IMG/VR virus record: IMGVR_UViG_3300030101_002235
Span: 14,938-37,914 of that record
Direction: 5' to 3' (one strand)
Source: a virus
Length of the DNA stretch: 22,977 bases
In this document: one piece after another, positions 1,759 through 18,400 of the stretch
Numbering within the stretch: the first letter of the stretch is position 1
Layout: every line of letters starts with the position of its first letter
Program-made: the position numbers and the translations under genes
The notes under the pieces: generated by a model
Database searches by the model: none
What the model was told of the DNA's origin: nothing
The model's input: the letters and a program-made list of their open reading frames with translations, nothing else

Positions 1759-1778
1759 AATAACTCCACATATTGTGT

Positions 1779-1812
1779 TTATGTAAGCGAATATATGAGA
1801 TAAGTTATGTAA
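1779..1812. promoter_or_regulatory. Candidate operator pair: TTATGTAA repeats around the RHH promoter -10
   Basis: TTATGTAA occurs at 1779-1786 and 1805-1812, flanking the -10 and the 13-mer ATATATGAGATAA (1791-1803). TTATGT is the reverse complement of the ACATAA core repeated at the other promoter (807, 837). Likely autoregulatory sites for the RHH protein; inference only. Confidence 0.4.
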
Positions 1813-1818
1813 TTGCAA
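1790..1818 (-). promoter_or_regulatory. Promoter of the RHH/zinc-protein cassette
   Basis: On the minus strand TTGCAA (1818-1813), a 17-nt spacer and TATATT (1795-1790) make a good sigma70-type promoter. This puts the transcript start about 25 nt before the RHH start codon. The -35 abuts the U-tract of the polymerase operon terminator, so one transcription unit ends exactly where the next begins. Confidence 0.65.
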
Positions 1819-1845
1819 CAAAAAAGACCCCGCCGGAGCGGGGTC
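1818..1845 (-). terminator. Rho-independent terminator of the replication operon
   Basis: GACCCCGC (1826-1833) pairs perfectly with GCGGGGTC (1838-1845) around a 4-nt loop. It is followed on the minus strand by six U residues (1825-1820). It lies 27 nt past the polymerase stop codon. Confidence 0.9.
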
Positions 1846-1872
1846 AGGTCTCTTCGGGAGGAATAAAAAAAC

Positions 1873-3768
1873 TTACTCAGCTTCACCCCAACTAGATCCG
1901 ATTTCTACATCGCACTTGTTGGGCACCTCCAATGGTACAGCATTTTCCATAATTTCTGCAACCTCTTTTGCTTCTTCACGAGATTTCACGGAAATAGCCA
2001 CTTCATCATGTATTTGAATTAAAGGTATGCGTCCTGTTTCATAAATATTCACCATTGATTGTTTGGTCATGTCTGCGGCAGAAGCTTGGATCAACCGGTT
2101 TAACGCTTTGTAGGTATATGCCCGCTTCAATCTGGTGGTAGGACCGTATTCATCAACGGCATCTTTGTATGGCAGAGCCTTATTCATGCCAAACGTATCG
2201 GGCTCCCACAGATCAAATCGGCATCTGCGGCCCAGTATGGAGCTTACAGCCCCTTTGCTCTTCTTACTGTTGAGGTGTTTCATTACACCGTTTTGTAGAC
2301 CTTTAACAAACGGCACTCGCTCATGGTATTGCTTGATTAGCCCCCGTGCCTCATCCACTTCAATATCTAACTGGTCTGCAAGCTTGTTGACCCCCATGCC
2401 GTACATCATGCCAAGGTTGATCGTTTTGGCCTGCTTACGTTTGATGCCAGCCATTTCTGCTACCATCGTATGAAAGTCCATGTCGGGATCGTTGCGGTAG
2501 CCGTCAACAAAGTCCTGTGCGCCCTCTAGCGGCACCCGCCCTCTAGAATTTCCTAAAACTTGTGCATAGTGAACCAAGATCCGTGGCTCCTGTTGTGAGA
2601 AGTCTATGGACGCCCACTGTTCTCCCTCTTCTGGTAGGAACAGACTGCGTATCATGGGGCCTAGCTCTGGATCGCGAGCCGGTATCTGTTGCAGGTTGGG
2701 GTTGGACATTGATATGCGGCCCGACACGGTCCCGCCGTCGTCAGACCGGATCTGGTTTATGTGACTATGTATACGCCCGTCAGACCGGCAGTGCTTCATA
2801 ATGGTATTGATGAACGTACCGCTGGTTTTGTTTAGGTTGCGGGCCTCGACTATGAGCTTTGGAAACTCATGCGTATGGTCAGACAAAAACTGCTTTCTAA
2901 ACGACGGTGCGCCCTTTTCTGTCTTTGGGTAGGCTATGCTGAGATGATCAAACGCTTTAGCAAGGGATTGAGCCGCCCATATCTCAACATCCATGCCTGA
3001 CATATCTTTTATCTGCTTGAGTACGGCTTTCTCTCTTTTGAGCAAACTATCCTTGGTACGCTCCACCTTGTCTTGATCTACGCGGACACCCTTCCATGTC
3101 ATGTCTATCAGGCATGGCAACAAGGCTAGCTCCAGATTAGCTATGGACCACAAGTCCTCTTTGCCTATTTCTACAGACAGATAGTTCCATAAGTCTAAGG
3201 TAATCTCCGCATCACCTTGTGCGTAGGGCCCGACATACATAGCGGGCATCTTCCACATTTCCGACTTGGCATCCAGACCAAAGCTGACTGCCGCTTCTCT
3301 TAGTTCTTTTTCTGTCTTTGTTTTTTTAAGATAGTCGTAAGCTATGTTGTTTAGGCTGTAGCTAAACCTGTTCTCATCAAGCAGAGACACTATCAGCATG
3401 GTGTCGATTATGCGGCCCTTGATAGTAAATCCCATGCGTCTGATCCAGCCCGCATCGTATTGTGCATTGTGCATGATCTTGTCAGCAGGACACTCAAACA
3501 CTTTCTTCAGCCACTTGTTGACTATGCGCTCATCCAGATTACCGCCATTCTCGTGACGTATGGGTATGTAACCTGCCCAGCCCTCGACAGCTATGGCGTA
3601 GCCCACAACCTCGCCATCACCTGTAGGCCATCCCGGTCCATTGGATTTAAGGTTGGGATCTTTTGTCTCAACGTCAATGGCTATCTGCTTGGCATCAAAT
3701 ATGTCAGGTAGCTCTGCCGGTGGCACCCACTCTGAAACGGGCACACTCTTATGAATGGTCAAACTCAT
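1873..3768 (-). CDS. polA: Family A DNA polymerase with 3'-5' exonuclease, 631 aa
   Basis: The replicative phage polymerase. The N-terminal proofreading domain has Exo I D32-x-E34, Exo II N101-x3-D105 and Exo III Y182-x3-D186. The polymerase domain has SGRISMSNPNLQQIP (about 349-363), motif A with D389 (WASIDFSQQEPR), motif B R444-x3-K448 ... Y456, and motif C HDE (587-589). There is no 5'-3' exonuclease domain and no insertion between the two domains; the length suits a phage PolA. The residue equivalent to E. coli Pol I Phe762 is Leu452 (codon 2413-2415). I chose the ATG at 3768, which overlaps the preceding stop as TAATG behind GGAGG; the frame is open to 3801 but would overlap the DUF6378-like gene. 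Last gene of the replication operon. Confidence 0.97.
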   Translation of the reverse strand: MSLTIHKSVPVSEWVPPAELPDIFDAKQIAIDVETKDPNLKSNGPGWPTGDGEVVGYAIAVEGWAGYIPIRHENGGNLDERIVNKWLKKVFECPADKIMHNAQYDAGWIRRMGFTIKGRIIDTMLIVSLLDENRFSYSLNNIAYDYLKKTKTEKELREAAVSFGLDAKSEMWKMPAMYVGPYAQGDAEITLDLWNYLSVEIGKEDLWSIANLELALLPCLIDMTWKGVRVDQDKVERTKDSLLKREKAVLKQIKDMSGMDVEIWAAQSLAKAFDHLSIAYPKTEKGAPSFRKQFLSDHTHEFPKLIVEARNLNKTSGTFINTIMKHCRSDGRIHSHINQIRSDDGGTVSGRISMSNPNLQQIPARDPELGPMIRSLFLPEEGEQWASIDFSQQEPRILVHYAQVLGNSRGRVPLEGAQDFVDGYRNDPDMDFHTMVAEMAGIKRKQAKTINLGMMYGMGVNKLADQLDIEVDEARGLIKQYHERVPFVKGLQNGVMKHLNSKKSKGAVSSILGRRCRFDLWEPDTFGMNKALPYKDAVDEYGPTTRLKRAYTYKALNRLIQASAADMTKQSMVNIYETGRIPLIQIHDEVAISVKSREEAKEVAEIMENAVPLEVPNKCDVEIGSSWGEAE

Positions 3769-4022
3769 TAGTCCTCGCCTCCCAAAGCACCGTAGCCGCA
3801 TATGTCTATCCAGCTATCCTCGTGTTCCGGCGTCACTATAAGCCTTGCCAGCTTGACGGCAACCATACATTGGTAGACTTGTGAGACACTTACGTCGGTA
3901 TCCAACAGCACAGACCACATTTTGGCAATGCGCTCATGGTTGTCATGTGCATCGCCGTAATCTTGGGCCCGTGGTCCGTTGACTAGGCTCTCTGCTTCCT
4001 TGAGTATCTCTTCACGTTTCAT
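3768..4022 (-). CDS. DUF6378-like small phage protein, 84 aa
   Basis: The sequence runs REEILKEAESLV, then DYGDAHDNHERIAKMW (21-36), then VAVKLARL and HEDSWIDICGYGAL. This matches the conserved pattern of a widespread phage family of unknown function (DUF6378, from memory): DYGD...N...IA..W, KxARL, DSWxDxxGY. The conserved acidic and His residues in a small all-helical protein resemble MazG-type NTP pyrophosphohydrolases in style, but no MazG signature is complete. It overlaps the helicase stop (ATGA, 4 nt) and the polymerase start (TAATG, 1 nt), so expression is coupled to both. Confidence 0.8.
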   Translation of the reverse strand: MKREEILKEAESLVNGPRAQDYGDAHDNHERIAKMWSVLLDTDVSVSQVYQCMVAVKLARLIVTPEHEDSWIDICGYGALGGED

Positions 4023-5575
4023 ATCAGATCATAACTTTTTGCTAGGTCCTGCGGCTCCACAAGATACAGGTTTTCCTTGGCACGGGTAACCCCCACATAG
4101 AATACGCGGTGCGTGTCATCAGGGTCTTTCCTGAACGCTTCTTCTGATGCCGTTGACAGGTCCGTAAACAGAACGACGTTGTCCGCCTCGCCGCCCTTTG
4201 ACCCGTGGATCGTGGACACCTTGATGCGGGGCTCTGCATTAAACTTTTCTCCGCGGCGCAGTAATGCTGTTATGTACGCCCGTTCTGCTGACGGTAGATT
4301 GTCCATCGCCTCATGCCAGATGCAGTCACGGATATCAGACTCCAGCCAAGCTGTACCCACTATGTGTACCAACTCCATGAGCCCGTGGTCCGCGATTAGC
4401 TGGTCAAGCGTCACCATGTCCTCATCACCAAGTGCGGGTAGCTTTTTAAAGCCGCGCTTCAGTCTGTCTTTGGTGGACATATAGCTGTAGATAGTGCGAG
4501 CCACTGCGCCGGTTACCTCACGGCCTTTGCGTAGTTGCTCCCAACCGTTGACGGCCTCGCTCACCTTTTCGGATATGGACCGTGTTCCGCGGTAGTCAAA
4601 CAGGTAACCGTCTGTTTTAAGCTCTGTTGCTACGGGAGCCAGCATATAACCGGCTTGCGCCAGTATCAGCCAAGTGCCTTCGCTCATGTCCAACTCATTC
4701 ACGGCATATATGTTACGAACAGTGCCCATGAAATCTCTGGCTTTATAAGTTTTAGGGTAACGACGGTGTATCCGGCTAGCTACCTTGCGAGCTAAGAAGT
4801 GAACGGCTTTGGGTATGCGGTAGGACTGTGACAGGGTTTCGGATGCGCCCTCAAGATTAATAAATTGATCAACGTCCGCACCCGCCCAGCGGTAGATAGC
4901 CTGATCGTCGTCACCCGCGCAATACATACGGTCTGACTTGGCATCCAGTGCGTGAGCTATGTCCCATTGCAAAGCGGACAGATCCTGCGCCTCATCCAGA
5001 AACGTCAGGGCAAAGCGAGGGCAGTAGTGCTCTGCACCTTGTGCAAACTGCTCCAGCATATCGGTGAAATCGTACACCTCGTTCTGCTTTTTATATTCAA
5101 GCAGGGACTTGGCGACATAGCTTACAGTGTTCCAAGACTCTTCGATGTCTGTCTCGTTGTACTGATCTCGCAAGTCTACCTTGCGAAGCCGCGCCAAATT
5201 GATAACGCCCAGTATAGGGTCATTAGCTTTTACTATACTTGGTATGTCGTCGTTGTAATCTATGCGCTTGTCTGTCGATAGCTCAAAGCCCATGATTTGG
5301 CTAAGTTCTTTGTAATGCTCCTTCTGCATGACTTGGTCTGTGCGTATATCGCTCATGGCAAGAGACATACTATGCAGGGTGCGAAAGAAGGGTAGCTCCT
5401 TCGGGTCTAGGTTGAACTTTGCCGCCGCTCTGTCCCGCGCTTCTTCTGCGGCTTTACGGGTAAATGAGAAGAACCCTATCTGGTTTGGCAGTACGCCCGC
5501 ACCAAGGGCCTTCTCCACCTGATTTATCAGCGTGGTGGTCTTACCAGTTCCGGGTGGTCCGAAGTATCTAAACAT
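4019..5575 (-). CDS. UvrD/Rep-like superfamily 1 DNA helicase, 518 aa
   Basis: A 3'-5' SF1A helicase with the motifs in order: Walker A GPPGTGKT (6-13), motif Ia FFSFTRKAAEEA (35-46), motif II DEAQD (194-198), motif III GDDDQAIYRWAGA (221-233), motif IV SYRIP (251-255), motif V TIHGSKG (454-460) and motif VI VGVTRAKENLYLV (about 494-506). It is shorter than UvrD (about 720 aa) because the 1B/2B insertions are reduced. The protein begins only five residues before Walker A, with no Q motif ahead of it. It may unwind the fork or process recombination intermediates with the phage polymerase. It starts inside the last codons of the preceding gene (8-nt overlap) and ends overlapping the next. Confidence 0.95.
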   Translation of the reverse strand: MFRYFGPPGTGKTTTLINQVEKALGAGVLPNQIGFFSFTRKAAEEARDRAAAKFNLDPKELPFFRTLHSMSLAMSDIRTDQVMQKEHYKELSQIMGFELSTDKRIDYNDDIPSIVKANDPILGVINLARLRKVDLRDQYNETDIEESWNTVSYVAKSLLEYKKQNEVYDFTDMLEQFAQGAEHYCPRFALTFLDEAQDLSALQWDIAHALDAKSDRMYCAGDDDQAIYRWAGADVDQFINLEGASETLSQSYRIPKAVHFLARKVASRIHRRYPKTYKARDFMGTVRNIYAVNELDMSEGTWLILAQAGYMLAPVATELKTDGYLFDYRGTRSISEKVSEAVNGWEQLRKGREVTGAVARTIYSYMSTKDRLKRGFKKLPALGDEDMVTLDQLIADHGLMELVHIVGTAWLESDIRDCIWHEAMDNLPSAERAYITALLRRGEKFNAEPRIKVSTIHGSKGGEADNVVLFTDLSTASEEAFRKDPDDTHRVFYVGVTRAKENLYLVEPQDLAKSYDLI

Positions 5576-5813
5576 CTTCTTCGTACAGTTCTTCTATGCT
5601 GGACATGGCTTTTATAAAGATAGGGGTTTTGTCTCCCACCCATGACCCCAGAGTATTGAACCAGAAAAACTCCACGGCATCGTCATACTCCATGCCGTCT
5701 CGCTCACAAAGAATGGCTATACACTTGTCATAGTCGTAAGCCGCGACATCTTCTTGACAGGCTCTGTGTGCTACACCAACAAACGCTTTTTCAAATCCAT
5801 CAGCTAATAACAT
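5568..5813 (-). CDS. Conserved small acidic phage protein, 81 aa, unknown function
   Basis: A short acidic protein with features typical of a family seen beside phage helicase and primase genes: GFEKAFVGVAHRA near the start, AYDYDKCIAIL, RDGMEYDDAVEFFWFN (39-54) and GSWVGDKTPIF. I do not know its function. Its place between primase and helicase with 1-nt and 8-nt overlaps means it is made with the replication proteins. Confidence 0.75.
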   Translation of the reverse strand: MLLADGFEKAFVGVAHRACQEDVAAYDYDKCIAILCERDGMEYDDAVEFFWFNTLGSWVGDKTPIFIKAMSSIEELYEEDV

Positions 5814-7351
5814 TAGAAAGGCACCTCCGTTGTTTCAAAATCTTTTAACGTAATGTCTACATCTGCATTGTCGAAAGCGGGCACGGACCAAACGCGAACC
5901 GTTCTACCTTTAATTTTTAAAACCGTACTTTCCCCGTTTATGTCCCGAAGCCGTTGCGCTATGCGGTGTGATTTGTATTCAAAAAACTTGTTCTTCTTCA
6001 AGAAGCTCTCAAAATCCCTCAAACGGAAATAGGTTACACCAGACTCTTCGTCTGTCCACGGCTTGCGGAGCAAGATTTCTTCACGGTCTTTTGCTTGCTG
6101 TAGGTGACGACAAAACTCTTCCAAGTAATCATAGAACTGTCCGCTGACACTTGCGTCTTCTGACACCTCCATGATGGCAGACTCGTTGTCCCGCATCTCT
6201 GTCATCATCGCAGAGATGCGCCCCTCCCAGACTATCTTGCTAACAGTACGAGGCATGAAGCTGAGTTGCTCCATACAAGCCTTTTGAAACGCGGGCTGAG
6301 ACAACAGGGCCTCTGTGTCTAGCTCCAACGGCTCGCCGTTTACATCCATGAACCACACAGGCGGGTTGGAGTTGTACTTTCTGAGGTTTGCTACGATAGC
6401 CCCTTGAACCGCGGCACCTATGCCGTGCTTACGGGTCATGCAGAGTTCTTTGTTACAATGTGTAACAATAGGCGCATCGCTACAACGGTAAGCGTAGTCC
6501 TTCTTCTCAAGCTGTTTGGCTATTATGTTGATCTCATTCAACGGCAAAGGTGGCGACAAAAACTCGTTGTTATACCGCAACAGTTCTGTGTCCCAGCTAT
6601 CTGGAAACGCTTTACGAAGATACACACCTATGTTGAACAGGCCGTTATTGCGCCCGCCTTCGCTTATGAGTTCTTTACACAAATGCTGTAGACAAGGCGG
6701 CCCATCACGCATGACGATGGCGTTCTTATCGCTGTCCGATAGCTGTAACTTCATCACCTCTTCAGGTGTCTGCTTATATTTTTCGTATTGAGCAATGAAC
6801 TCATCAAGAGTGATACTGACACCCTTGTTATCAAAACCATAGCGCAACCCGTCTTCAGCATCGTAGTACGGCAGGTTTAGAAAATTACCTACATCGCCAC
6901 GATCCAGATGCAACTTGACCTGCTTTGGAAATATCTCACTGCCACCGTAGCCAAGTGCCGCCGACACCTGTTGCAGTGTGGCTTGCATATCCTTGGCGTC
7001 TATCCACTCTGTGGTAAACAAGAAGCAGTGCGCCCCGCCAGATTTAGAGCGGGTCACAACTAACGGAAGCTTGAGCTTCCTGATCTTCTGTATCAACAGT
7101 TTGTGGTCTAACGGATACTGATCTACGTCAATACAGCCCCAGACGCACTTGTTCTGCTCGTTAATCGGAATGATACCAATGGACTGACCCTTACCCGACA
7201 GGTGACCTTGCCATAGTTCCGTGGTCCGTGGTTCGCGTAAAATAGCCGCCTTACCGGAGTTCTTTCCGTTAGACTGAGTTTTCTCAATCTTGTAAGTGCC
7301 ATACGCCGCCTCAAGGCCGCGGAATATCTCCTGAAACTTTTCTACAGACAT
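5813..7351 (-). CDS. Archaeo-eukaryotic-type (AEP) DNA primase, 512 aa
   Basis: The N-terminal half shows the AEP catalytic pattern: a DxD metal site (CIDVDQY, D75 and D77), an S-x-H-type motif in SGGAHCFLF (104-112) and a following basic/hydrophobic stretch DRGDVGNFLNLPYYD (150-164). Residues 231-285 read as a primase C-terminal (PriCT-like) helical domain: GRNNGLF ... N ... PPLPLNEINIIAKQL. Cysteines C220, C290, C299 and C304 could bind zinc or an Fe-S cluster. It most resembles the primase domain of phage and TOTE-type AEPs rather than DnaG or T7 gp4. No helicase domain is fused. The last ~110 residues contain a winged-helix-like segment (FRLRDFESFLKK ... SHRIAQRLRDI). Primes DNA synthesis for the PolA encoded downstream. 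Confidence 0.85.
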   Translation of the reverse strand: MSVEKFQEIFRGLEAAYGTYKIEKTQSNGKNSGKAAILREPRTTELWQGHLSGKGQSIGIIPINEQNKCVWGCIDVDQYPLDHKLLIQKIRKLKLPLVVTRSKSGGAHCFLFTTEWIDAKDMQATLQQVSAALGYGGSEIFPKQVKLHLDRGDVGNFLNLPYYDAEDGLRYGFDNKGVSITLDEFIAQYEKYKQTPEEVMKLQLSDSDKNAIVMRDGPPCLQHLCKELISEGGRNNGLFNIGVYLRKAFPDSWDTELLRYNNEFLSPPLPLNEINIIAKQLEKKDYAYRCSDAPIVTHCNKELCMTRKHGIGAAVQGAIVANLRKYNSNPPVWFMDVNGEPLELDTEALLSQPAFQKACMEQLSFMPRTVSKIVWEGRISAMMTEMRDNESAIMEVSEDASVSGQFYDYLEEFCRHLQQAKDREEILLRKPWTDEESGVTYFRLRDFESFLKKNKFFEYKSHRIAQRLRDINGESTVLKIKGRTVRVWSVPAFDNADVDITLKDFETTEVPF

Positions 7352-7370
7352 GTTTGCCCCCCAAAGGAAG

Positions 7371-7403
7371 AGACGGCGAGCCTCTTTGGATTACTCGCCG
7401 CCT
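7371..7403. other. Intercistronic hairpin without U-tract
   Basis: In the 59-nt gap between the SSB-like and primase genes, AGACGGCGAG (7371-7380) pairs with CTCGCCGCCT (7394-7403) over ten positions, one a G-U or A-C mismatch depending on strand, around a 13-nt loop. No U-run follows on the minus strand, so it is more likely an mRNA stability or processing element than a terminator. It would protect the abundant SSB message from 3' decay. Confidence 0.5.
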
Positions 7404-7410
7404 CAACTGC

Positions 7411-8199
7411 TTAGAACGGTGTATCGCCATCTTCTTCGTTTGTGGCGTTATCGTCCTGATGCTTCACGACAACATCTCCTGTTGTCACGCTTTGGGCAAA
7501 TGTCTTAGCCTGTCCGTAAATACCGGCGTTCTGTACCGGTCCTTCAAGGCTCATTTCCCATCCGTGCCAGCTTCCTTTGCTGTTTTCCTCTGACACGGTC
7601 TTCAAATTGTAAATGTGACTGAAACGTGGCGGGGTAAACGGACCGTTTTTCCCTTGCATGACCCGTGAAGATATCATGCTATTCCACTTACGGCTCTTCT
7701 TCAACTGCGTAGACTTCATCGCAATCAAAGCCGTTTCAGAGGAACCGTCCTCGTTCATCACAATTACAAAATGTTGGTGAGTTTCTTCTATATACTCACC
7801 CTCTCCCCCAACAACATACTCTTTGTTATCCTCAGAAGATCGTTCCGTCTTTGGCATAGTATCGCCCGGAGAATAAATAGCCTGCGGAGCCCCGCTTCCA
7901 ACGCCTCTGGGGGCCCATTGAATGAACCGACGCTGATAAGCACACGGAATGACCTTGATGCCGTCCTTGCCCGTGTAAACGTGTCCAGTGACGGTATTAT
8001 ATATGTCACCTTTGCGAGCAGTCTCATGTGTATCCAGAAGAGGATCTAAACCTGACAGGATCTTAAGAAACGGTAGAGCAAGATCTTCCTGCCCCATATT
8101 CTCCATGCCCATACCGGCATCATCTTCAAACATGGTCGGGTCAAAAGGGATTACTTCAGCCGACTTTGTTTCTGCAACTTCTTTTTTCTTATCAGCCAT
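7411..8199 (-). CDS. Probable single-stranded DNA-binding protein, 262 aa
   Basis: The C-terminus is an acidic tail ending NEEDGDTPF, strikingly like the DDDIPF tip of bacterial SSB that recruits partner proteins, and like the acidic tails of T7 gp2.5-type SSBs. The body is rich in beta-prone stretches (VTGHVYTG, IKVIPCAYQRRFIQW, HQHFVIVMN, ALIAMKSTQLKKSRKWNSM), compatible with an OB fold, and has many aromatic and basic residues for ssDNA. I chose the ATG at 8199: GAGGAG lies about 9 nt upstream and it follows the preceding stop by 1 nt. The frame is open to 8463, but the extra 88 residues are Arg/Lys-rich, lie wholly within the neighbouring gene and look like shadow sequence. Followed by a hairpin. 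The family name is not recognised; the SSB role is inferred from tail and context. Confidence 0.65.
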   Translation of the reverse strand: MADKKKEVAETKSAEVIPFDPTMFEDDAGMGMENMGQEDLALPFLKILSGLDPLLDTHETARKGDIYNTVTGHVYTGKDGIKVIPCAYQRRFIQWAPRGVGSGAPQAIYSPGDTMPKTERSSEDNKEYVVGGEGEYIEETHQHFVIVMNEDGSSETALIAMKSTQLKKSRKWNSMISSRVMQGKNGPFTPPRFSHIYNLKTVSEENSKGSWHGWEMSLEGPVQNAGIYGQAKTFAQSVTTGDVVVKHQDDNATNEEDGDTPF

Positions 8200-8200
8200 C

Positions 8201-8779
8201 TTATTTACTCCTCTTGATAACTGCGCGTTGTCCGACATAGGCTCCGAATAACTCCATTGGGAAGTCGTCACCATTCTCAACACGTTCCTTGACAAAGGCA
8301 CGAAGCGTCTGCGGATGGATCTCCGTTTTTTGCTCCGCGTAATGGCCTTCTTTTTCGGCAAGGGCTTTGAAGGACGACGCCTTGTCGTCTTCGCCCCTGC
8401 CAAATTGACACGCAACGGTATTTTTAATGATGTCATCGTAGCCTTTCTCCCGAAGCCACTCATAAGCGGCAGGTCTGTTATCCACGAGGATAGATGCCCC
8501 GTAGGTTTGTTTAACGGTCACTTCTGACCCATCGTCTAGTTTCATCGAAGACAGACCGATTTCTGCAAGCATCGTCGGTAAATCTTCATCCGTAAGTTTC
8601 AAAAGACCTTTCTTCGCCTTCTTGAGGTCCGCCTCAAGTGACGATATGTATTCTTCTTCATCTCGGATTTTGCGGGCTATCTCAGCCACTGTTTGCAGAC
8701 CAGCTTGATCTAGCTTTTCTACGCCGGAGGACAGGCTTTGTTCAAAGTCCTGCTCCATTTGATCAAAGATATCGCTCAT
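8201..8779 (-). CDS. Conserved phage replication-module protein with N-terminal coiled coil, 192 aa
   Basis: Residues 30-62 form a charged heptad-like helix (AEIARKIRDEEEYISSLEAD...). The middle has LPTMLAEIGLSSMKLDDGSEVTV (68-90), then YEWLREKGYDDIIKNTV (106-122), FGRGEDD (126-132) and HPQTLRAFVKERVENG (155-170). I recognise this as a widespread but unnamed phage family, usually next to an SSB or nuclease gene. It is the first gene of the replication operon, preceded by GGAG at 7 nt and by the divergent promoter. A scaffold or recombination-mediator role with the SSB-like neighbour is a guess. Confidence 0.7.
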   Translation of the reverse strand: MSDIFDQMEQDFEQSLSSGVEKLDQAGLQTVAEIARKIRDEEEYISSLEADLKKAKKGLLKLTDEDLPTMLAEIGLSSMKLDDGSEVTVKQTYGASILVDNRPAAYEWLREKGYDDIIKNTVACQFGRGEDDKASSFKALAEKEGHYAEQKTEIHPQTLRAFVKERVENGDDFPMELFGAYVGQRAVIKRSK

Positions 8780-8817
8780 CGCGTTTCTCCATCGTGGTTA
8801 AAGGCACCGGTTGGGCC

Positions 8818-8846
8818 TTGACAAATTGTATATAGACGCATAAATT
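8818..8846 (+). promoter_or_regulatory. Promoter of the SNF2-like helicase gene
   Basis: TTGACA (8818-8823), a 17-nt spacer and TAAATT (8841-8846), followed by AAGGAG (8856-8861) and the ATG at 8868. The leader is very short, about 15 nt. Overlaps almost completely with the opposing promoter at 8829-8857. Confidence 0.75.
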
Positions 8847-8857
8847 CGCATAGTCAA
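8829..8857 (-). promoter_or_regulatory. Promoter of the replication operon, opposing the helicase promoter
   Basis: On the minus strand TTGACT (8857-8852), a 17-nt spacer and TATATA (8834-8829). The start codon of the first operon gene is at 8779. The -35 boxes of this and the plus-strand promoter sit in an inverted repeat CCTTGAC (8816-8822) / GTCAAGG (8853-8859), so the two cannot be occupied at once. Confidence 0.7.
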
Positions 8858-8867
8858 GGAGAAAATT

Positions 8868-10316
8868 ATGGGAAAATACAAGTTCAGGACAGAACCTTTT
8901 GAACACCAGCAGAAAGCTTTAGATGACTCGTGGTCCGCTGACTATTACGCGCTATTTATGGAGATGGGAACAGGTAAGTCCAAAGTAGCTATTGATACAA
9001 TCGGCATGTTGTATCAAGCAAGAAAGATAAGCGCGGCACTTATAGTTGCACCAAAAGGTGTCTATGACAACTGGGTACAAGGAGAAATACCTGCACACCT
9101 GCCAGATGAGATCAAACGCATGGTGGTACGGTGGACGCCGTCTAATACGAAGAAATTTCAGCAGGAAATGAAAGACTTAGTGTATGGGCCCTTTGACGGC
9201 ATAAAGATATTTGTGATGAACATAGAGGCGTTGTCTACGCCGCGGGGGACTAAAGCGGCATATGCTTTTTTATGCAGAAATCCCAATAATATGATGATTG
9301 TGGATGAGAGCACTACTATCAAAAACCGTAAGGCTACTCGTACAAAAAATGTAATGATGTTAGCCAAGGACGCAAAGTATAGGCGTATCTTGACTGGCTC
9401 TCCTGTAACCAAGTCACCTATGGATCTGTTCAGTCAGTGTGCGTTTCTTTCGCCCTCTGCCCTCAACTTTAAAAGTTATTACTCGTTTCAGAACCGTTAT
9501 GCCGTTGTGCAGAAGCGGACTATGGGTCCGCGAGCATTTCAGGAGATCGTGGCCTACAGGCGCTTGGATGAGTTGAACGAGAAGCTCAACCGGTTCAGTA
9601 ACCGCATATTGAAAGAAGAGTGCCTTGATCTGCCTGCCAAGATGTACATACGGCGTGATGTGCCGTTGACCGCGGAGCAGGATAAAGCTTACGTGCAGAT
9701 GAAAAAGCTAGCCTTGGCAAAGCTGGACAACGGAGAGTTAGCCACAACAGCCAGTGTTCTAACGCAGATTATGCGCCTGCAACAGATATGCTGTGGGCAC
9801 ATACAATCTGACGACGGTGAGTTGGTTACTTTGGCGAGCAACAGATACAAAGAGCTAATCGACGTAACAGAAGAGTTACAGGGAAAGGCGATCATTTGGG
9901 CGACGTATACACACGACATCCAACAGATAGCCTCTGCCCTGCGCGACCGCTTTGGGCCCGAAGCGGTCGCAACCTATTACGGTGACACCCGACAAGATGA
10001 ACGACAAGAGACTGTAGATAAGTTTCAAGACAAAGATAGCCCGTTGCGTTTCTTTGTTGGTCAGCCGCGGACGGGGGGCTATGGCATTACCCTGACTGCC
10101 GCCAACACCGTGATATATTTTAGCAACAGCTATGATCTGGAGATACGTCTGCAATCTGAGGACCGGGCGCACCGTATCAGTCAGGATCAGAAAGTTACTT
10201 ACATTGATCTTGTATCGCCTAAGACTATTGACGAGAAGATCTTAAAGGCTCTACGAGGCAAGATAGATTTAGCGGGCAAGGTGCTTGGAGAGCAGGCTAG
10301 GGCTTGGTTGGTTTAA
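8868..10316 (+). CDS. SNF2/DEAD-type superfamily 2 helicase, 482 aa
   Basis: Walker A MGTGKS (33-38), motif Ia-like VAPKGVYDNWV (60-70), motif II DEST (146-149), motif III LTGSPV (175-180), a C-terminal helicase half starting near GKAIIWATYTHDIQ, motif V TGGYGITLTAA (402-412) and motif VI QSEDRAHRISQ (429-439). The QxEDRAHRxxQ form is typical of SNF2 proteins. It lacks accessory DNA-recognition domains and is a compact phage version. Such phage proteins are thought to be the replication helicase or a fork-remodelling or translocating ATPase. The only plus-strand gene; AAGGAG 6 nt before the ATG. Its stop codon overlaps the stop of the converging virion gene within TTTAAA. Confidence 0.95.
   Translation: MGKYKFRTEPFEHQQKALDDSWSADYYALFMEMGTGKSKVAIDTIGMLYQARKISAALIVAPKGVYDNWVQGEIPAHLPDEIKRMVVRWTPSNTKKFQQEMKDLVYGPFDGIKIFVMNIEALSTPRGTKAAYAFLCRNPNNMMIVDESTTIKNRKATRTKNVMMLAKDAKYRRILTGSPVTKSPMDLFSQCAFLSPSALNFKSYYSFQNRYAVVQKRTMGPRAFQEIVAYRRLDELNEKLNRFSNRILKEECLDLPAKMYIRRDVPLTAEQDKAYVQMKKLALAKLDNGELATTASVLTQIMRLQQICCGHIQSDDGELVTLASNRYKELIDVTEELQGKAIIWATYTHDIQQIASALRDRFGPEAVATYYGDTRQDERQETVDKFQDKDSPLRFFVGQPRTGGYGITLTAANTVIYFSNSYDLEIRLQSEDRAHRISQDQKVTYIDLVSPKTIDEKILKALRGKIDLAGKVLGEQARAWLV
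9943..9970. repeat. Perfect 10-bp GC-rich inverted repeat inside the helicase gene
   Basis: GCGACCGCTT (9943-9952) and AAGCGGTCGC (9961-9970) are exact reverse complements around an 8-nt loop that contains GGGCCC. It encodes RDRFGPEAVA, in a surface region between the C-terminal helicase strands. No U-tract follows. Confidence 0.6.
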
Positions 10317-11650
10317 ATTTCTTGGAAAGATCTTCCGGATAAAAGATTTTGTCTAGCAACAGATCGCGGAGATAACGTCTGAAAAGCATTAGGCACTCCC
10401 ATAAGATCTGATTTAAACTTTTCCATATCTTGTTTAAGAAGCCTGTTTTCTGTGCGTTGATCTTCTAGCATTTTATTCAATCTTTTTTCATCCATTGCCT
10501 CTTGTAGAGTTTTTCTTTCTAACAAGGGGTCTGCTAAACCACCAAATCTTTGTGGCAATAAATCTTCAGGATTAGATAAAAGTAGACCATATTGTTCAGA
10601 CCCTAAAAGCGGAAGAGGATCAGAATCAGGTGGTGTAAATACACCAACGTCTGATTGCTCTTCTAGATAATTATCTATCATGGCGCGATTAATATCTCTT
10701 TCTCTATCACGCTCATATTGCTCACCGTACATCTGATTCAAACGAGCCGCACGTTCCGCGTCAGTTTCTGTATCGGGGTTAGGGGGGAGGGAGGGCGCTG
10801 TTGAGCTTGAAATGGGTATTTTATAGCTTAAACCAAAACTTTTGTTTTCTGGGGACAAACCAAAAGTAGGCTTAATAGCACCCGGACCCACCTTTAAACC
10901 TTCCATTGCTTTTTTTACAAAACCACCTATTCCATCTCGTGGTATGTTTTGAAAAGCTGGGTTTAACGAAGACGGACCACCTTGATCAGCATTGTAACTA
11001 ATTAACCGTCCTGCTTTTGTGGGTTGAATGTCAGTGGCTTCTTCCATCACGTCTTCTGTGAAAGAGCCCTCCATAGGAACCAGTTCTGTTTTTGGACCCA
11101 TTAGAGCTTGTGCTAAATTAGATCCGGGAATCACGGAAAAGGGACCAAGATCTCTGGGTACAGCTTGTGCTCGTGCAGGAAATCTTGCACCAGTTGCGGG
11201 ATCTGTTAACAGCGCTAACTCATTCGGTCTAAACTGACGTAGATTACCTTGTGCATCAGCGGGATTTAGGTACTTGTCATATGCACGATCAATTATAGCT
11301 TGTCTTTGACTAAGCGGTATAGTGTCGCTGTAATCTAACCCTGAACCACCAAAGCGTTGATTAGCTGACTCAAAAAATCGTCCTATACCGCCCTTAGTTA
11401 GTCCGAAGGGGTCTGTTACGGTGCGACCCGTGGCTTGCATATATTGGTCGCGAGTTAAGGCTCCTTCGGGTATAGGTAAGGGCCTAAAAGCATCTATCTC
11501 TCGGTCAGTTGTGCCAGTTACCCTACCAAACATATCAGGTTGAGCGGCTTTACCTGTGCCGGGGTCCCTGATCAAATTGTCGGAGCCGATAACCGTAGAG
11601 GTTCTGCCGGTGTTGGGGTCCCGCGGTCCTGAACGAAAAGTGTATGACAT
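10313..11650 (-). CDS. Unrecognised virion-module protein, 445 aa
   Basis: The last gene of the virion block. It is Pro/Gly/Asp-rich, with a low-complexity N-terminal 60 residues (repeated TGR and TG turns). GLTKGGIGRFF (84-94) and GIGGFVKKAMEGLKVG in the middle could be amphipathic segments. A charged, probably coiled-coil region lies near the C-terminus (KTLQEAMDEKRLNKMLEDQ... to about 420). No enzyme motif, signal peptide or clear membrane span was seen. Its start overlaps the upstream stop as TGATG. The context suggests a minor virion or DNA-ejection protein; it may instead be non-structural. Visibly more A/T-rich than the virion genes upstream. Confidence 0.75.
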   Translation of the reverse strand: MSYTFRSGPRDPNTGRTSTVIGSDNLIRDPGTGKAAQPDMFGRVTGTTDREIDAFRPLPIPEGALTRDQYMQATGRTVTDPFGLTKGGIGRFFESANQRFGGSGLDYSDTIPLSQRQAIIDRAYDKYLNPADAQGNLRQFRPNELALLTDPATGARFPARAQAVPRDLGPFSVIPGSNLAQALMGPKTELVPMEGSFTEDVMEEATDIQPTKAGRLISYNADQGGPSSLNPAFQNIPRDGIGGFVKKAMEGLKVGPGAIKPTFGLSPENKSFGLSYKIPISSSTAPSLPPNPDTETDAERAARLNQMYGEQYERDRERDINRAMIDNYLEEQSDVGVFTPPDSDPLPLLGSEQYGLLLSNPEDLLPQRFGGLADPLLERKTLQEAMDEKRLNKMLEDQRTENRLLKQDMEKFKSDLMGVPNAFQTLSPRSVARQNLLSGRSFQEI

Positions 11651-14600
11651 CAGCCCATCAAGCTCCCTATGCCCTGTTGACGGATAAGACCAGAAGCTAC
11701 GTCGTTAGGGAACATCGCCGCATAACGAGTGCGGTCTACGTTACCGCTAGGTGCAGGCGTCTGAGGTGACACCGACGCAAGGGTGGTTGTGGGTTGTGCC
11801 ACCGGTTGCGCCGGAATTGGTGGTGGTGTAGGCATAGCTGTTGGAGCGACGGAGCTTACAGACATATTTTGCGGTGTAGGAAGTGGCGTCGTGCGACCAG
11901 TTCCAACATCTTCATCTTCTGCGGCTTCTCTAATTGCAAACGGTGACATAGACCCCGCAGTCGCAAAACCTTTGCGTGAAAGTATTTCTACTATTGCTCT
12001 AGTTTGTTTTACGCCCTCTTCTGCTGTCTTTGGACTTCGTATTAATTTAGCGGCTACTTCAGGGTCTGTAAAAATTAACTGAATGACTTCCATTCTCTTA
12101 GAAGCAGGGATATTTTTAAAGAAATCCAAAGCAATTCCTTTGGTAAATCCTGCGGCGCTAATTGATGCGGTGCCGCCAGTTCCCCCTGTTAAAGCTTGAT
12201 AAGCTTTTGTACCGCCAGCTAAACCAATCATGCCAACATAAAAATCAAACAAAGGTCCCGCTTGTTTAACTATATCGGGATCAGCTAATTTGCCTGCTGA
12301 ATCGGCAGCGGCTAATCGAACCATTTGATTAGATATTGCTCTCATACGGCGTATTTGGTTTTTATCCATAATGCCGTAACTTTCAGCCATATCTACTAAG
12401 GATCTTTTACCGGCCCCCTGTCCGGGTAACGGTTGAAAAAGAATTTTGTGAAAAGTTAAGTGGTCAAAAGTTTTACCTTCGCCACCCGCTTCCATCATGG
12501 CGTGTTGAAGAATTGTGTTAAAATATCCTTCTTTAATTTTTGATTGCATTTTGGCTTGTTCTGCGGCGGGTAAAAATTTGCCGTCAGGGCCTTTATATTT
12601 AACGCTGGTTAAACGAAACAGACGACGTAACCCGCCTATTGGATCAGCCTGACGCGCACCTTTAGGAATAAAATTTAGCGCTTCTGTTAAAGCAATATGT
12701 GGAGAAGAATTACCTATTTGGGCCGCAAGAAAAGTTTGGCTGTCCGTTATTTGTTTCGCGGCATCAGAGCGGTTTTCATAAAATTCAACGGTGCGTTGTG
12801 CCTTAACCGCACTATCAAGGTCTGACTTTAAATTAGGAAACAACTCCATTAATTCAGCGTTGTCTCTCTTCCAATTTTCTAAAGATTTAGCGTTTATAGA
12901 ACCATCGGGGTTCATAGCAGATAATCTTAAAGTTCTAACCGCACCTTCCATAATATTATTTATGGAAGTAAAAGTGCCTGTAGCTCCCTCAAAACCTTGT
13001 TCTTCTGCAAATTTAGCTACCCCTTGAAGCTGTTGTACTCGTAAATCAACCATGTCCGGGTTGCTTCTAACGAAGGAACTAATAAGAAGCTCTGGGGGGA
13101 TACGATTACCGCGCATCATATCTTTTGCGCGGCCTTTTCCAACTATAGACCGCGTAAATACGTTATTTAAGGCAAAAGAAAACGCTCTTGCAATGTCAAA
13201 GGAATCTTTTTCTCCATCAGGTAAAAGATCTAAATCGTCCATGATGGCTTCTGCTATTTCGCCTAATTTACGAGCTTGGTTTGCCGTTCCCATACGAGTA
13301 GTCGCGCCGCTAGCCACTTGTGCCAAAGTATTTAAAACTTCGGACCTAACGTCAAATAATTCTTTTGCGGATATTGGAGAAACTCGTTCAGGGTCTAATT
13401 TTTTCTGCTCCAACTCCAGAAGTTTTAATTTAGCTTGTGCTACTTTCAAGAAATTTTCTTGAGAAGGCCCGGATACATCAATTTCAAAAACTTCATTCGC
13501 TCCGTCGCCTGTTTCAGGATCTTTAAGAATAAACCTTTCATCTCCCCTAAATTTACCCTTTTCTAAATTCTCAATTAAGGTCTGCATTCGATCAACTTGC
13601 CTATTTAAAGGAGCCCCTCTCATTTTGGCTTCTACTTGAGTTCGTATTAAGGCAACCGGATCAGAATCTTGCGCGTCTATGGACTGTATTATTAGATTTT
13701 GTTGTTCAATAGCTTCTTTTATGTCTAACCCTAAACGAGCTTTGGCACTCCTAACAAAATTAGGTAGACCGCCAAGAGCAGCAACAAACTCTTCCCTATA
13801 ACCAGCAGGCAAGTCGTTTACGAGCTCATCATATTTAGTTATAAAAGAAGGCATTACGTCTCCATCTATAACGTCCTCCGGCTCAAACACATTTACTCCG
13901 CCGGTTTTCCCCCAAAGTTCTTTCTCTCTAGCTCTGGCAAAACCTAGCTGAGTGTCTAATATGTCGGCTAGTTCCAAAGAAAAAGTTTTACGAGACTTAG
14001 GAGTGCCTAAATTTTCATCTCCTGTTAAAACCCTATTACGAGCAGCTATTCTTGTATCTACGGCTCTGCGTAAACGACCCGTTATCATATCACTCATTAA
14101 ACTTTTTCTGAGAATAGCAGCAGTTCGCAAGGACTCTGGGCTGTTTTCAGACACCAACCCATAAATAAACTTATCAAAAAAGGATTTTGCATTTCTGTCT
14201 GCTTTTTTCCTAGCAGCCAGTAGATCAGGGTTTTTAGTAGCCATTTCAGCTTCTAATCCCATAATAATACCTGTGTTATCCTCCAATCTTTGAGCAGCAG
14301 TAAAATTAACTCCGGGGAAAACTTCTTGTAAGATGGCATTTGTTTCAGGACTGTTTAAGTCCTCCATCATACGTTCATAATCTCCGTCATATTTTGTGTA
14401 TAGTTCGTCAATACGCTTAAACAACTTTCTTTGTTTGCCTTCGGCCATTTTACGAATAAAATTATCGGCTTCTTCTCCAGCATCAACTTGAGTGGCTTTT
14501 GAATAAACGCTCGGCAAAAATTTAGCAAAAGTGGCTGCAAGAGTGTTTCCACCTAAAAACTCAGCCGCTAATCGTAATCCTGTCCCTCCGGGATCTGCCC

Positions 14601-15489
14601 CTTCTGCAACATATGCTCCTCCGGCTGAACCTAGCCCTGCCACTGTTTCAGCACCAACTGTCAAACCTGCGCCGACTTTGCTTCCACGAGCAGTTCTACC
14701 CATGCCCTCCAGCATATCTTCTATAGTTGCTGTAATACGAGCACCCGTGGGACGAGGAGCGCCTTCCGCTATATTTGCAAGAAAATCACGAGCGGCTCTA
14801 GTTCCTGTCTCTTTAAATAAAAAAGGAAATTGTATACCGGCGGTAGCCCCGCCAAGGGTTCGCATGGTCTCTATTGCTTGTTTCTGACCGGGAAGAATTG
14901 GTTTTTGAGGCCCTAAAGCTAATTCTTCTAAGGCGTCCGCGCCTTCATAAAGAAGTAAGCTACCCCCTATAAAAGAGGCAACTACGGGGGTGGCTCTTAC
15001 ACCAAACCCTATAAGAGATCTAGGCGGAGTTCTAAAAGTCTTAGCAGCCGTCAACTGTGCGGCTTTTGTCCCCGCTGCTACACTAGGGGCTGTTTTGAAC
15101 AACTCACCAAAAAAAGCACGAGATAAAGATCCTTTTTCAGCAGTTGTTAAAAGGGCGTTGATAGAGTCTGGATCTTTAAAATAAATGCTACGTTCAACTG
15201 GGTTCAAGTCGCGTATAGGGCGCTCCTCTGGCCCGTTAGGCCCTTCCATAGTCACAGTGTAATCAGGGCTTAAAAAATCGTAAAAGGTAGCCGTGCCATC
15301 TTGCAGTTTTTCATAACTAAAAAAGTTGGGGTCGTTTGCTATTTGAGGGGCGTAATCTTGAGTTGCAAACGTGGTTACCAAATCACGAGCCAAAGCTTCT
15401 GGGGCCTTTTGACCAAACTGTAACCGAAAGTCGTCGATCTCTTCCGGCAGCAAGTCTATTTTGTTAATTTGCAGATTCATCTTCGTCAT
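11650..15489 (-). CDS. Giant internal-virion/ejection-like protein, 1279 aa
   Basis: A very large protein without cysteine-rich or catalytic motifs. An Ala/Gly-rich hydrophobic stretch lies at about 160-185 (TPVVASFIGGSLLLYEG), with further Ala/Gly segments to about 330. Long charged helical regions follow (about 350-1000), then another Ala/Gly-rich stretch (LFDFYVGMIGLAGG) and a Pro/Thr/Ala-rich tail. This design, a helix-rich core with membrane-active segments, matches ejected internal virion proteins of short-tailed phages (T7 gp15/gp16 style), but I see no lytic transglycosylase motif. Start: the ATG at 15489 has AAGAAGG 4-5 nt upstream; the ATG at 15480 and GTG at 15543 are poorer. It overlaps the upstream gene by 26 nt. 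Function is inferred from size and position. Confidence 0.8.
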   Translation of the reverse strand: MTKMNLQINKIDLLPEEIDDFRLQFGQKAPEALARDLVTTFATQDYAPQIANDPNFFSYEKLQDGTATFYDFLSPDYTVTMEGPNGPEERPIRDLNPVERSIYFKDPDSINALLTTAEKGSLSRAFFGELFKTAPSVAAGTKAAQLTAAKTFRTPPRSLIGFGVRATPVVASFIGGSLLLYEGADALEELALGPQKPILPGQKQAIETMRTLGGATAGIQFPFLFKETGTRAARDFLANIAEGAPRPTGARITATIEDMLEGMGRTARGSKVGAGLTVGAETVAGLGSAGGAYVAEGADPGGTGLRLAAEFLGGNTLAATFAKFLPSVYSKATQVDAGEEADNFIRKMAEGKQRKLFKRIDELYTKYDGDYERMMEDLNSPETNAILQEVFPGVNFTAAQRLEDNTGIIMGLEAEMATKNPDLLAARKKADRNAKSFFDKFIYGLVSENSPESLRTAAILRKSLMSDMITGRLRRAVDTRIAARNRVLTGDENLGTPKSRKTFSLELADILDTQLGFARAREKELWGKTGGVNVFEPEDVIDGDVMPSFITKYDELVNDLPAGYREEFVAALGGLPNFVRSAKARLGLDIKEAIEQQNLIIQSIDAQDSDPVALIRTQVEAKMRGAPLNRQVDRMQTLIENLEKGKFRGDERFILKDPETGDGANEVFEIDVSGPSQENFLKVAQAKLKLLELEQKKLDPERVSPISAKELFDVRSEVLNTLAQVASGATTRMGTANQARKLGEIAEAIMDDLDLLPDGEKDSFDIARAFSFALNNVFTRSIVGKGRAKDMMRGNRIPPELLISSFVRSNPDMVDLRVQQLQGVAKFAEEQGFEGATGTFTSINNIMEGAVRTLRLSAMNPDGSINAKSLENWKRDNAELMELFPNLKSDLDSAVKAQRTVEFYENRSDAAKQITDSQTFLAAQIGNSSPHIALTEALNFIPKGARQADPIGGLRRLFRLTSVKYKGPDGKFLPAAEQAKMQSKIKEGYFNTILQHAMMEAGGEGKTFDHLTFHKILFQPLPGQGAGKRSLVDMAESYGIMDKNQIRRMRAISNQMVRLAAADSAGKLADPDIVKQAGPLFDFYVGMIGLAGGTKAYQALTGGTGGTASISAAGFTKGIALDFFKNIPASKRMEVIQLIFTDPEVAAKLIRSPKTAEEGVKQTRAIVEILSRKGFATAGSMSPFAIREAAEDEDVGTGRTTPLPTPQNMSVSSVAPTAMPTPPPIPAQPVAQPTTTLASVSPQTPAPSGNVDRTRYAAMFPNDVASGLIRQQGIGSLMG

Positions 15490-18400
15490 TAACCCTTCTT
15501 GAGTTAGCCGTTGCACTGCCGGATGCCACGTTGGCCGCAGCACCTCCCGGTGTCAGGTTAGCCTCATATGCAATTATGGCTGCGGTGTATTCGGCGATTA
15601 ATTTTTCTGTATCTCGCATTGCAAGTCTCGCATCAGAAACTCTATCTGTAAATGCCGCAGGGTTTTCCGTATTTGCATCTACAATAGATTTAGCACGAGC
15701 GTAATCTGAAGCTAAAGCTGAACGCACGGTCCTAAGTTGTTGAAGGGCGGAGACATCCGATTTAACTCCTCCGGGCTGGAAACCTTTTACTTCCTGTTCC
15801 AAAAGTTGCAAATCAAGAGCAAAGACTCGGCCATCTACACCCGCTCGTGCTACATTAATTGTTTTACGAGCTAAAGCGTCCAACTGTTTGTCCGCGGCAC
15901 TTGTTATTTTTGCATCATTACCAGCATATCCCGTCCCTATGCCTACTTCAGCCAGTTGTCCTGCAATTCCGTTAAAGAACCTGTTTACACTTGATACAAA
16001 ACCTTGAGATTGAGTGTAATCCAGACCTGTTATAATAAACGTAGGATCAGCGAGGGCACGATCTATATTGACGGTGTTGTCTGCGTTAAGTAACGGAACA
16101 TCCTGATCCGGTGATACCATTTGCAATTCTGCTACAGTAAGACCAAGGGTGTTTAACGGAACAGGTGAACTACCTCCAGCAAGAACACGCTTTTTAATAG
16201 CCGCTTTCATAAAGTCAGGCAGTTGACGCTTTTGAAGTAATCCACTCTTGTCGATAGACGGCGCGGTATAAATGCTGATCTGACTTTCCATGACAGGATC
16301 GTCCGCACCTGCTGCATAAAGGTCCGTCATCTTTGTGCCAGCATTGTTAGTTTCTATAGAGAAGTACCTAAGAGCCTTGCCCGCGTCTCCTTTACCAAAC
16401 ATATCTGGTGGAGAGTCCGGTTTTTCGTATGGAACAATAGCCCCACCACCAAAAGTCTCTTTAATGTTGTCAATTTCAGCATCTGTTGGGTAGAAAGGAG
16501 CTCCGGCTTTTATCTGCTCCCCACGGAAGGTTATATCGGTAGCAGCGGTAACTGGTTTAGTGGTTGCAGCTTTCGGATCATCTACAACGCTTCCTATAGC
16601 AAAGTCCTGTCTTGCAAGTCTGTAATAATCTTCGCTAAACTCTACAACTGTCTGACGATCCCCAGTCTCTGTGTTTATCATGTTAACAAGCTTACGGTCT
16701 TTTTCTGATACCGTGCCAGATAGCACCGCCTTGTTTGCAATCGCCTTTTTAAACTCAGGGCTGTTCTTTTCAAAAGCCTTTATGTCTCCGTTTGGCATAC
16801 GTAAGTTAACTGTGTCTGTGTCTGGAACTGTAGCTGTACCCGATAACAGACCGCCTCTTCCGCCTTCAGATACAGGCTTAATTGCATTGATATACGCTTC
16901 GCTTCCCGGAGTTAAAACCTGCTGTGTATTGTCCGGGAAAAGCACGTTTACATCGCCCTGCTTCTCAGGGGCTTTGTACGGAATGACCGAGGTCGAGAAC
17001 TTATCAATCTCGTTGGCCTCTACGGAACTAACAACGACAACATCACCCGTTTTTCGTTTTACACCGTTAACGGTTATAGGTTGAGTCACAGTGTACGCTT
17101 TTTTAGCGCCAGCCTCGCCAGTTTCAGCTTTGTACGGCGTTAAAGCGCCAGCATCCTCTATCTGTGCAACCTGTGCGGGACGTAAATTTAAAAGTGTGTT
17201 TGCTGGGTATGTTTTATTATCAATAACGACAGATTTCTTGGTAACAAAAGGGCTTGTTTTATTAACTGCTGTGGTTTTGTTTTTTATTTCTTGAAGTTTA
17301 ATAGCCTGTTCCGCAGCTATTTCAGTGTCTATCTCCGTCTCGCCGCGCTGTACCGCAGCAAGCTTGAGTGCGCGTTCCTCTTTGTCCGCGGCTTTCTTAT
17401 ATTCAAGCTGCTGTTGGGCCCGTGCGCCAATAGTCTGAGGCAGTTGCGTGGTCCGTGCGGCCATAGCCAATCGTTCTGCGGGGCTCATACCGGCCCGTTC
17501 ACCTTCCATAGGAGCGGCAAACGCTAGTGCGGTGTTTGCAATATCAAAAAGCATCTGAGCTTGCGTAAGCTTCTTTTGTTCTTCAAGGTCCGCGGCCCGT
17601 GATTCAGGGGAGCCCAACCCCGCTTTTATATAGCGAGCTTCTGCATCTCTAGCTCTTTCCAACACTCGTTCGTCATAAGAACGCTCTGGTTTGGGTAAAG
17701 CCGCTGCCGCCGCAGGACTTAAAGTAGCACGAGCCGCTGCTTGCGCTTTTGCTGTGTTGATGTTGTCCAACAACCTGCCTTGACGAATAGCTGAAACATC
17801 TATTTCAGGATCGTCTCTACGCATGTAATCTTGAATATCGCCAATGGTGCCGCTAAGTATAGGTGCGCTTAAAGGTACACCTCCACCTAAGTCAAATTTC
17901 TGGACCGGCTGGTTGTCTCCTCGGCGGACCAGCCCGCCATCCTTAAAATTTGCGGGTGGAGGCCCTCCCATCATAGGAGGTGCCGTGGGCGGCATAGGGG
18001 CAGGCTCTGGAGGTGCCATAGTGGACATAATACCTTCAGCCATTGGTCCTTCTACAGACTCAGTCATGGTCTCTTGAGCCAAGCCGCCAATGCCTTCATC
18101 AACAGAAGCTATCTGAACGACAGGCTGAACCAGTGCCAAAACAGACTCTGGAGTCTGCGCGGCATCCTGCTCTCCAACAAGACCTGCAAGCTCTGTGCGT
18201 CTTTCAGGCACACTGGCTTCGTCTCCACGGATCATGTTCATCATCTGTTCGTAGTTGTCTACATTTTCCAGATCTTGAATGCCCTCGCCTGCTCTCATCA
18301 GCATGTCTTGCATAATAGCTGGGTCAACGGACTCCATCATAGAGCCAACACCTTGTGCCATAGCCGGGTCTCCGCCCATTGCCATGCCTACAGCATCCGT

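Follow-up and report, generated by a model that had tools for sequence, protein, structure and literature searches.

With respect to the closest described systems, the bidirectional bacterial promoters reported by Warman, Grainger and colleagues are characterised by transcription starts that lie 7-25 bp apart, usually 18, and by -10 elements that overlap (PMC10268837), and they are described as a recent subject whose control has hardly been studied (PMC12825309). For five such promoters of E. coli, no competition between polymerases was reported at basal activity, competition being seen only at high activity (PMC12825309). A related arrangement is that of the Pr and Pc promoters of plasmid pLS20, in which, as placed by the authors, each promoter has its -35 box on the partner's -10 box and its -10 box on the partner's -35 box; according to the same account, overlapping promoters make a switch when their activities differ and a regulator acts differently on each (PMC4207663). 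The alphaproteobacterial sigma70 consensus, as given for Sinorhizobium meliloti, is CTTGAC-N17-CTATAT (PMC2873474), the phage HTVC027P is said by its authors to have no RNA polymerase of its own and to rely on that of the host (PMC12753301), and 5'-terminal stem-loops are known to stabilise mRNA, as stated in a review citing the ompA and papA papers (PMC3997798). Judged by titles and the beginnings of abstracts, the literature returned no paper on the promoter pair of these phages that is described below; the words 'promoter' and 'intergenic' do not occur in the main text of PMC9599517, and on temporal expression in HTVC027P, the word 'helicase' is absent from the main text of PMC12753301.

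In this study, a short site was investigated in 22,977 nucleotides of viral DNA, hereafter the window, which cover positions 14938-37914 of a 37914-base virus record. No named phage matched the window at the DNA level, and by terminase the nearest named phages were HTVC027P (62.6%), 023Pt_psg01 (62.4%), DSL-LC04 (58.3%) and HTVC023P (54.2%). From its sequence, its conservation on both strands, its spacing, the covariation of a leader hairpin and the layout of the genes, we consider it likely that the site is a compact bidirectional promoter for host sigma70, from which an SNF2-like helicase and a leftward replication operon would be expressed jointly and with mutual exclusion, the leftward transcript of the window's clade carrying a protective hairpin. 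With each start predicted at 7 nt past its -10 box, 31 bp separate the pair of starts in the window, and the same calculation gives about 28-35 bp across clades. Provided that these predictions are right, the site lies outside the definition of Warman et al. (starts 7-25 bp apart, reciprocal -10 overlap) and is in another register.

Layout of the site and its gene setting

Table 1. Features of the site and of the adjoining genes, in positions of the window.
Feature	Position	Strand	Remarks
Plus -35 box TTGACA	8818..8823	+	Candidate helicase promoter; CTTGAC at 8817-8822; sequence reading
Plus -10 box TAAATT	8841..8846	+	Candidate helicase promoter; 4/6; spacer 17 nt
Predicted helicase-transcript start (GUCAAGGAG...)	8853	+	Placed 7 nt past the -10 box
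Minus -35 box TTGACT	8852..8857	-	Candidate replication-operon promoter; CTTGAC at 8858-8853
Minus -10 box TATATA	8829..8834	-	Candidate replication-operon promoter; 4/6; spacer 17; alphaproteobacterial form CTATAT at 8835-8830
Predicted replication-operon transcript start (GUCAAGGCCC...)	8822	-	Placed 7 nt past the -10 box
5'-terminal leader hairpin AAGGC CC [AACC] GG u GCCTT	8801..8819	-	Covariation, in the window's clade
Likely Shine-Dalgarno AAGGAG, helicase gene	8856..8861	+	Sequence reading; overlaps the minus -35 box
Likely Shine-Dalgarno GGAG, first minus gene	8787..8790	-	Sequence reading; outside the leader hairpin
SNF2-like helicase gene	8868..10316	+	Only plus-strand gene recognised in the window
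DUF7307 gene (Pam3 gp33-like)	8201..8779	-	Opens the leftward operon

We observed that each strand of the site carries a complete set of -35 and -10 boxes, with bases shared between the sets and directions that diverge (Table 1). The initial annotation had described a plus promoter, TTGACA-17-TAAATT, and a minus promoter, TTGACT-17-TATATA, and their boxes, spacers and coordinates were confirmed on the sequence, as were the 7-bp inverted repeat that holds both -35 boxes (CCTTGAC at 8816-8822, GTCAAGG at 8853-8859), the extent of 29 bp per promoter and the offset of 11 bp; the bases common to both promoters amount to 18 bp (8829-8846). The term 'face-to-face', which had been applied to the pair, is a misnomer, as the predicted starts diverge and the transcripts would neither face each other nor overlap. 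The two -10 boxes stand side by side without overlapping, and the predicted start of either promoter falls at or next to the -35 box (TTGAC) of the opposite one; the minus transcript is predicted to begin with the complement of the plus TTGACA. A few base pairs would in this manner hold several jobs, as -35 box, as start region of the opposite promoter, and as hairpin foot or Shine-Dalgarno. Occupancy by two polymerases at once appears implausible from the overlap, in agreement with the earlier statement that only one can bind at a time. The motif CGCATA occurs twice within the element, at 8837-8842 and 8847-8852, 10 bp apart, and no such pair was seen in most of the relatives compared.

Concerning the genes, where a recognised gene denotes a family match or the longest frame at its place, the leftward order is DUF7307, Pam3_Gp34, then primase, UvrD-like helicase and family A DNA polymerase. 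We infer that these replication genes form one transcript, and both they and the SNF2-like helicase look like replication functions. No RNA polymerase was found among the proteins of the window phage that were scanned, a scan that took in part of its frames, and no regulator gene was seen adjoining the promoter site. A possible regulator does occur elsewhere in the window: the minus-strand gene at 972-1382 encodes a small protein that has an NrdR-like zinc ribbon. An 81-aa protein of the window was considered as a phage sigma-like factor, its positional counterpart in DSL-LC04 bearing the annotation 'RNA polymerase sigma-G factor'. It was set aside, since nothing in Pfam matched it and its one assignment was to a PHROG of unknown function. 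Downstream, the helicase gene converges with a minus-strand gene (10313-11650), the stop codons overlapping at 10313-10316. No terminator-like site was listed on the minus strand at this junction, and leftward transcripts might run antisense through the helicase gene. GC skew was uninformative about a replication origin, the cumulative skew falling along most of the 37.9-kb record, with a local pause at about 24-28 kb. This stretch adjoins the element (23.8 kb) on its right and coincides with the helicase, a gene of the opposite strand.

Other lone TTGAC-type promoter-like sites were also noticed on the minus strand, at 850 in the window and near 13910, 11971 and 9578 of contig L090. Some of these share a TATATATG(T/G)GGATAA-like sequence from the -10 box onwards and perhaps represent a family of phage promoters. 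The same contig encodes at 3346-4842 (-) a protein with an ADP-ribosyltransferase-like (ART-PolyVal) match just below the Pfam cut-off.

Conservation of the element and fit to promoter consensus

With a generic sigma70 scan of positions 1-20000, no excess of promoter-like sites was detected (20 found, 25.6 expected), and only the plus promoter of the pair was listed, the minus promoter being missed because the scan requires a final T in the -10 box. The paired arrangement itself is rare by chance: TTGAC-N30-GTCAA occurs once where 0.02 occurrences are expected, and among 500 dinucleotide shuffles of the window, four gave a TTGAC/GTCAA pair of 36-42 bp with -10 boxes of at least 4/6 on both strands. 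Against the alphaproteobacterial consensus, whose host class is only presumed for this phage, the minus promoter matches at 12/12 (CTTGAC-N17-CTATAT, 8858-8830) and the plus promoter at 10/12; the former is the sole CTTGAC/CTATAT match with N16-18 on either strand of the window.

Of 322 candidate helicase relatives, the best 80 (71-89% identity) were taken, and TTGAC...GTCAA was present in 80 of the 80 sequences with 110 nt upstream, namely the window and 79 loci, L012 being left out for its short upstream region. The element measures 41 bp in 70 of these sequences, 40 bp in nine and 48 bp in one. A DNA-only pattern scan of viral contigs, with no gene in the pattern, returned at least 120 rows, of which the first 120 were used; all 112 newly fetched loci among them led back to the same locus, and 26 of the 112 have a 500-nt stretch in common with a locus from the helicase search. 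The helicase is adjacent, within 150 nt, in 103 of these loci. The minus neighbour gene is present in all nine others, seven of which hold the first helicase codons at the contig end, while L182 is cut at the start codon and L114 has its helicase 5.7 kb from the element. In L114 the element (908-950) is retained beside the minus operon although the helicase is so far off.

Taken together, 185 of 189 loci of the SNF2-like helicase have TTGAC...GTCAA ahead of the gene, the window and its own record included. These loci are best-of-list and first-row samples with at least 60 nt upstream each, shorter ones such as L084 of HTVC027P being dropped, and they comprise 122 distinct sequences, counted over a stretch that opens 24 nt ahead of the element and closes at helicase codon 20; other counts of distinct sequences were 102, 58 for leaders and 88 for cores. 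The four loci lacking the element at the helicase are L114 (element elsewhere), DSL-LC04, HTVC023P and ct3Et533. The samples (best 80 of 322, best 80 of 343 and the first 120 scan rows) under-represent distant relatives, and the loci share ancestry, so the locus counts are not independent events. On this conservation, the candidate promoter pair is more than a chance arrangement.

A second clade, grouped around phage 023Pt_psg01 and with a helicase about 55% identical, was sampled as the best 80 of 343, two loci being too short. All 78 loci with enough upstream DNA harbor a 36-38 bp version of the element, at most 110 nt from the helicase in 74 and about 160-210 nt upstream in the other four. 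In each of the three of these four that were translated (all but L264), a small open plus-strand frame stands between the element and the helicase (L210 307-464, L251 2793-3001, L263 2840-3001), and the frames of L210 and L263 resemble each other. Of five named, more distant relatives, 023Pt_psg01 alone has the full element. HTVC027P, a cultured relative with Pelagibacter HTCC1062 as host, whose upstream region was read by joining ends, keeps the helicase-side promoter TTGACT-N17-TATATA, its minus strand being weaker, with only TTTACT and TATATA at 16 or TATAAT at 18; in HTVC023P, DSL-LC04 and ct3Et533 the element is absent at the locus. The initial annotation had looked to related phages for both boxes and their symmetry: nearly all sampled close relatives retain them, but most of the five named distant ones do not.

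Further variants include an element shortened to 32 bp (L286), from a distant relative on a Flavobacteriaceae MAG contig, whose boxes TATAAG and TATATG both stand at 16 nt, and one that is 7 bp longer in L080, with TATAAG at 16 (minus) and TATCCT at 18 (plus). A search of genome contigs for a prophage copy that could name the host gave only that one distant relative and was not host-informative. A different CTTGAC...GTCAAG site, of 45 bp, is identical in L091 (7631-7675) and L093 (2968-3012), contigs in which no match to the SNF2-like helicase of the window was found.

As the elements scored for -10 boxes and dyad symmetry were chosen by exact match to TTGAC...GTCAA, their invariant TTGAC/GTCAA is no evidence, and the conservation test proper is the share of helicase loci that have the pattern. 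Of the 88 distinct elements of the first clade, 83 have -10 boxes of at least 4/6 at 16-18 nt on each strand, against a mean of 11.7 (sd 3.2, maximum 22) when the inner bases were shuffled 300 times; for the second clade the figure is 33 of 42 (shuffles 11.0, sd 2.8, maximum 18), with nine of the 42 minus -10 boxes reaching only 3/6 and the plus strand scoring best at a 19-nt spacing (5.12 of 6). The plus and minus promoters score alike on average. On the alphaproteobacterial consensus of the presumed host class their means are 10.5 and 10.1 of 12, compared with 9.0 and 8.9 in shuffles.

The initial annotation had also suggested that the site might serve a symmetrical regulator. The -35 boxes alone show strong dyad symmetry, and there is little of it between them: the column-wise test, which took in 80 elements of 41 bp and 40 of 37 bp, gave at its best position pair complementarity in 64% of the former and 75% of the latter, at most 14 points above column expectation. 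What is conserved between the boxes of the 41-bp elements is mainly two TATA blocks and one C (76/80) that is unaccounted for by the promoter boxes. The distance between half-sites shifts by non-helical steps (41, 40, 37, 32 and once 48 bp), the TATA-like boxes staying at promoter spacing as the length varies, so that half-sites at one fixed helical spacing, as a symmetrical operator would have, were not found among the relatives. Together with the -10 boxes on both strands, these observations argue for two promoters rather than one symmetrical binding site and disfavour the symmetrical regulator. The sixth -35 base is asymmetric in the first clade (plus A in 84 of 88; minus A in 51 and T in 36) and symmetric in the second (A in 41 and 40 of 42).

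Leader hairpin of the predicted leftward transcript

A conserved base-paired stem is present near the predicted 5' end of the minus transcript in the window's clade only, at +4 to +22 (8819-8801) of the predicted GUCAAGGCCC... transcript, about 3 nt from its end. Its statistics refer to the 7-pair structure over 58 distinct leaders, those near a contig end being dropped; leaders without the bulge are out of register in the alignment and count against the structure. Paired cells make up 91.4%, against 82.0 when shuffled and at most 62.6% in slid controls, and cells with double changes number 41, against 9.0 in shuffles. Further pair types (12 against 8.1) were matched by 2 of 500 shuffles, and the signal was weak for the number of pairs showing a double change, 4 where shuffles averaged 2.3, with 43 of 500 shuffles being as high; the shuffles leave relatedness uncorrected, and the slid controls keep it. 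At least six pairs form at the same place in 53 of the 58 leaders, compared with 3.2% of shuffles, and the other five have shifted or interrupted hairpins. All 58 leaders fold below -5 kcal/mol, and none of the 21 distinct leaders of the second clade does. The hairpin is accordingly an extra that does not belong to the core element. An Rfam search of 8400-9300 (E up to 1) gave no match at 8801-8819 and one sub-threshold match at 8495-8545.

A new finding is that the predicted minus transcript of the window's clade opens with this covarying hairpin. As the hairpin leaves the Shine-Dalgarno free, protection of the 5' end is its likeliest role, and it probably guards the long mRNA of the leftward operon from 5'-end-dependent decay.

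Competing readings and comparison with described systems

The reading we prefer, joint expression from a bidirectional promoter, may be summarised as follows. Host sigma70 RNA polymerase would read two superimposed and opposite promoters, and a polymerase bound one way would cover the other promoter, so that the two would fire in turn. Rightward firing would give a helicase mRNA with a short leader; leftward firing would give the mRNA of the replication operon, from DUF7307 to the DNA polymerase, which in the window's clade the 5' hairpin would guard. Joint expression with shared firing is favoured on two grounds, the similar scores of both strands and the finding of no regulator gene next to the site. 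The exclusion may be mild, by analogy with the E. coli pairs that do not compete at basal activity.

A switch between the helicase and the rest of the replication genes, as the initial annotation suggested, would have a regulator drive the two promoters at different times, in alternation. The promoter overlap would permit this, the overlapping divergent promoters of pLS20 do belong to a switch (PMC4207663), and the NrdR-like zinc-ribbon protein could serve as an unlinked regulator. However, there is no regulator gene beside the site, little is conserved between the boxes of the 41-bp elements beyond the TATA blocks and the single C, the promoters of both strands score alike, and the two gene sets both look like replication functions, which leaves the switch unsupported and, in our view, unlikely.

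It is quite improbable that one promoter is used and the other box is kept for its remaining duties, namely as transcript start, as part of the Shine-Dalgarno (in the window) and as hairpin foot. GTCAAGGAG does overlap the likely Shine-Dalgarno of the helicase, and in the window's clade the hairpin stem shares bases with CTTGAC, but relatives such as L048 retain GTCAA with a Shine-Dalgarno-like stretch further downstream, the second clade keeps both boxes without any hairpin, and -10 boxes are enriched on both strands. The least probable reading, that the TTGAC/GTCAA repeat is an operator for a symmetrical dimeric regulator, can point to the exact half-sites of the 185 sampled loci and to the symmetric sixth base of the second clade, but it is opposed by the non-helical half-site distances, the low inner complementarity, the asymmetric sixth base of the first clade and the fact that TTGAC is a plain sigma70 -35 sequence.

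Returning to the bidirectional promoter, a more far-reaching and tentative possibility is that the element represents a distinct bidirectional class outside the 7-25 bp definition, in which the -35 box of one promoter is the start region of the other, kept over long evolution within a phage group as a device that sets a ratio. Competition between polymerases would then divide firing between the helicase and the replisome genes, and in one clade the 5' hairpin on one transcript would set the final ratio. With 130 distinct elements (88 and 42) in several fixed lengths, nature supplies a series of evolved material on which the rules of polymerase competition are testable.

With reference to the described systems, the site resembles pLS20 Pr/Pc in that divergent promoters are superimposed, but in pLS20 one promoter is weak and depends on a regulator, the switch working with RcoLS20 and DNA looping (PMC4207663), whereas no regulator gene adjoins the site in the window and no operator was found there. 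Both of its promoters are like the Sinorhizobium meliloti sigma70 consensus (PMC2873474), the minus one in every position, for a host class that is only presumed. The hairpin agrees with mRNA-stabilising 5' stem-loops (PMC3997798) in lying a few nt from the predicted 5' end and apart from the Shine-Dalgarno, and differs from them in that its first stem bases (AAG/CTT) are also found in the promoter -35 region. As in the promoters of Warman, Grainger and colleagues (PMC10268837, PMC12825309), pseudo-symmetric DNA could seat sigma70 RNA polymerase either way, giving divergent transcripts, and one binding event would presumably exclude the other. Unlike those promoters, the site has predicted starts about 28-35 bp apart and -10 boxes side by side, and the parts that overlap here are the -35 box and the start region.
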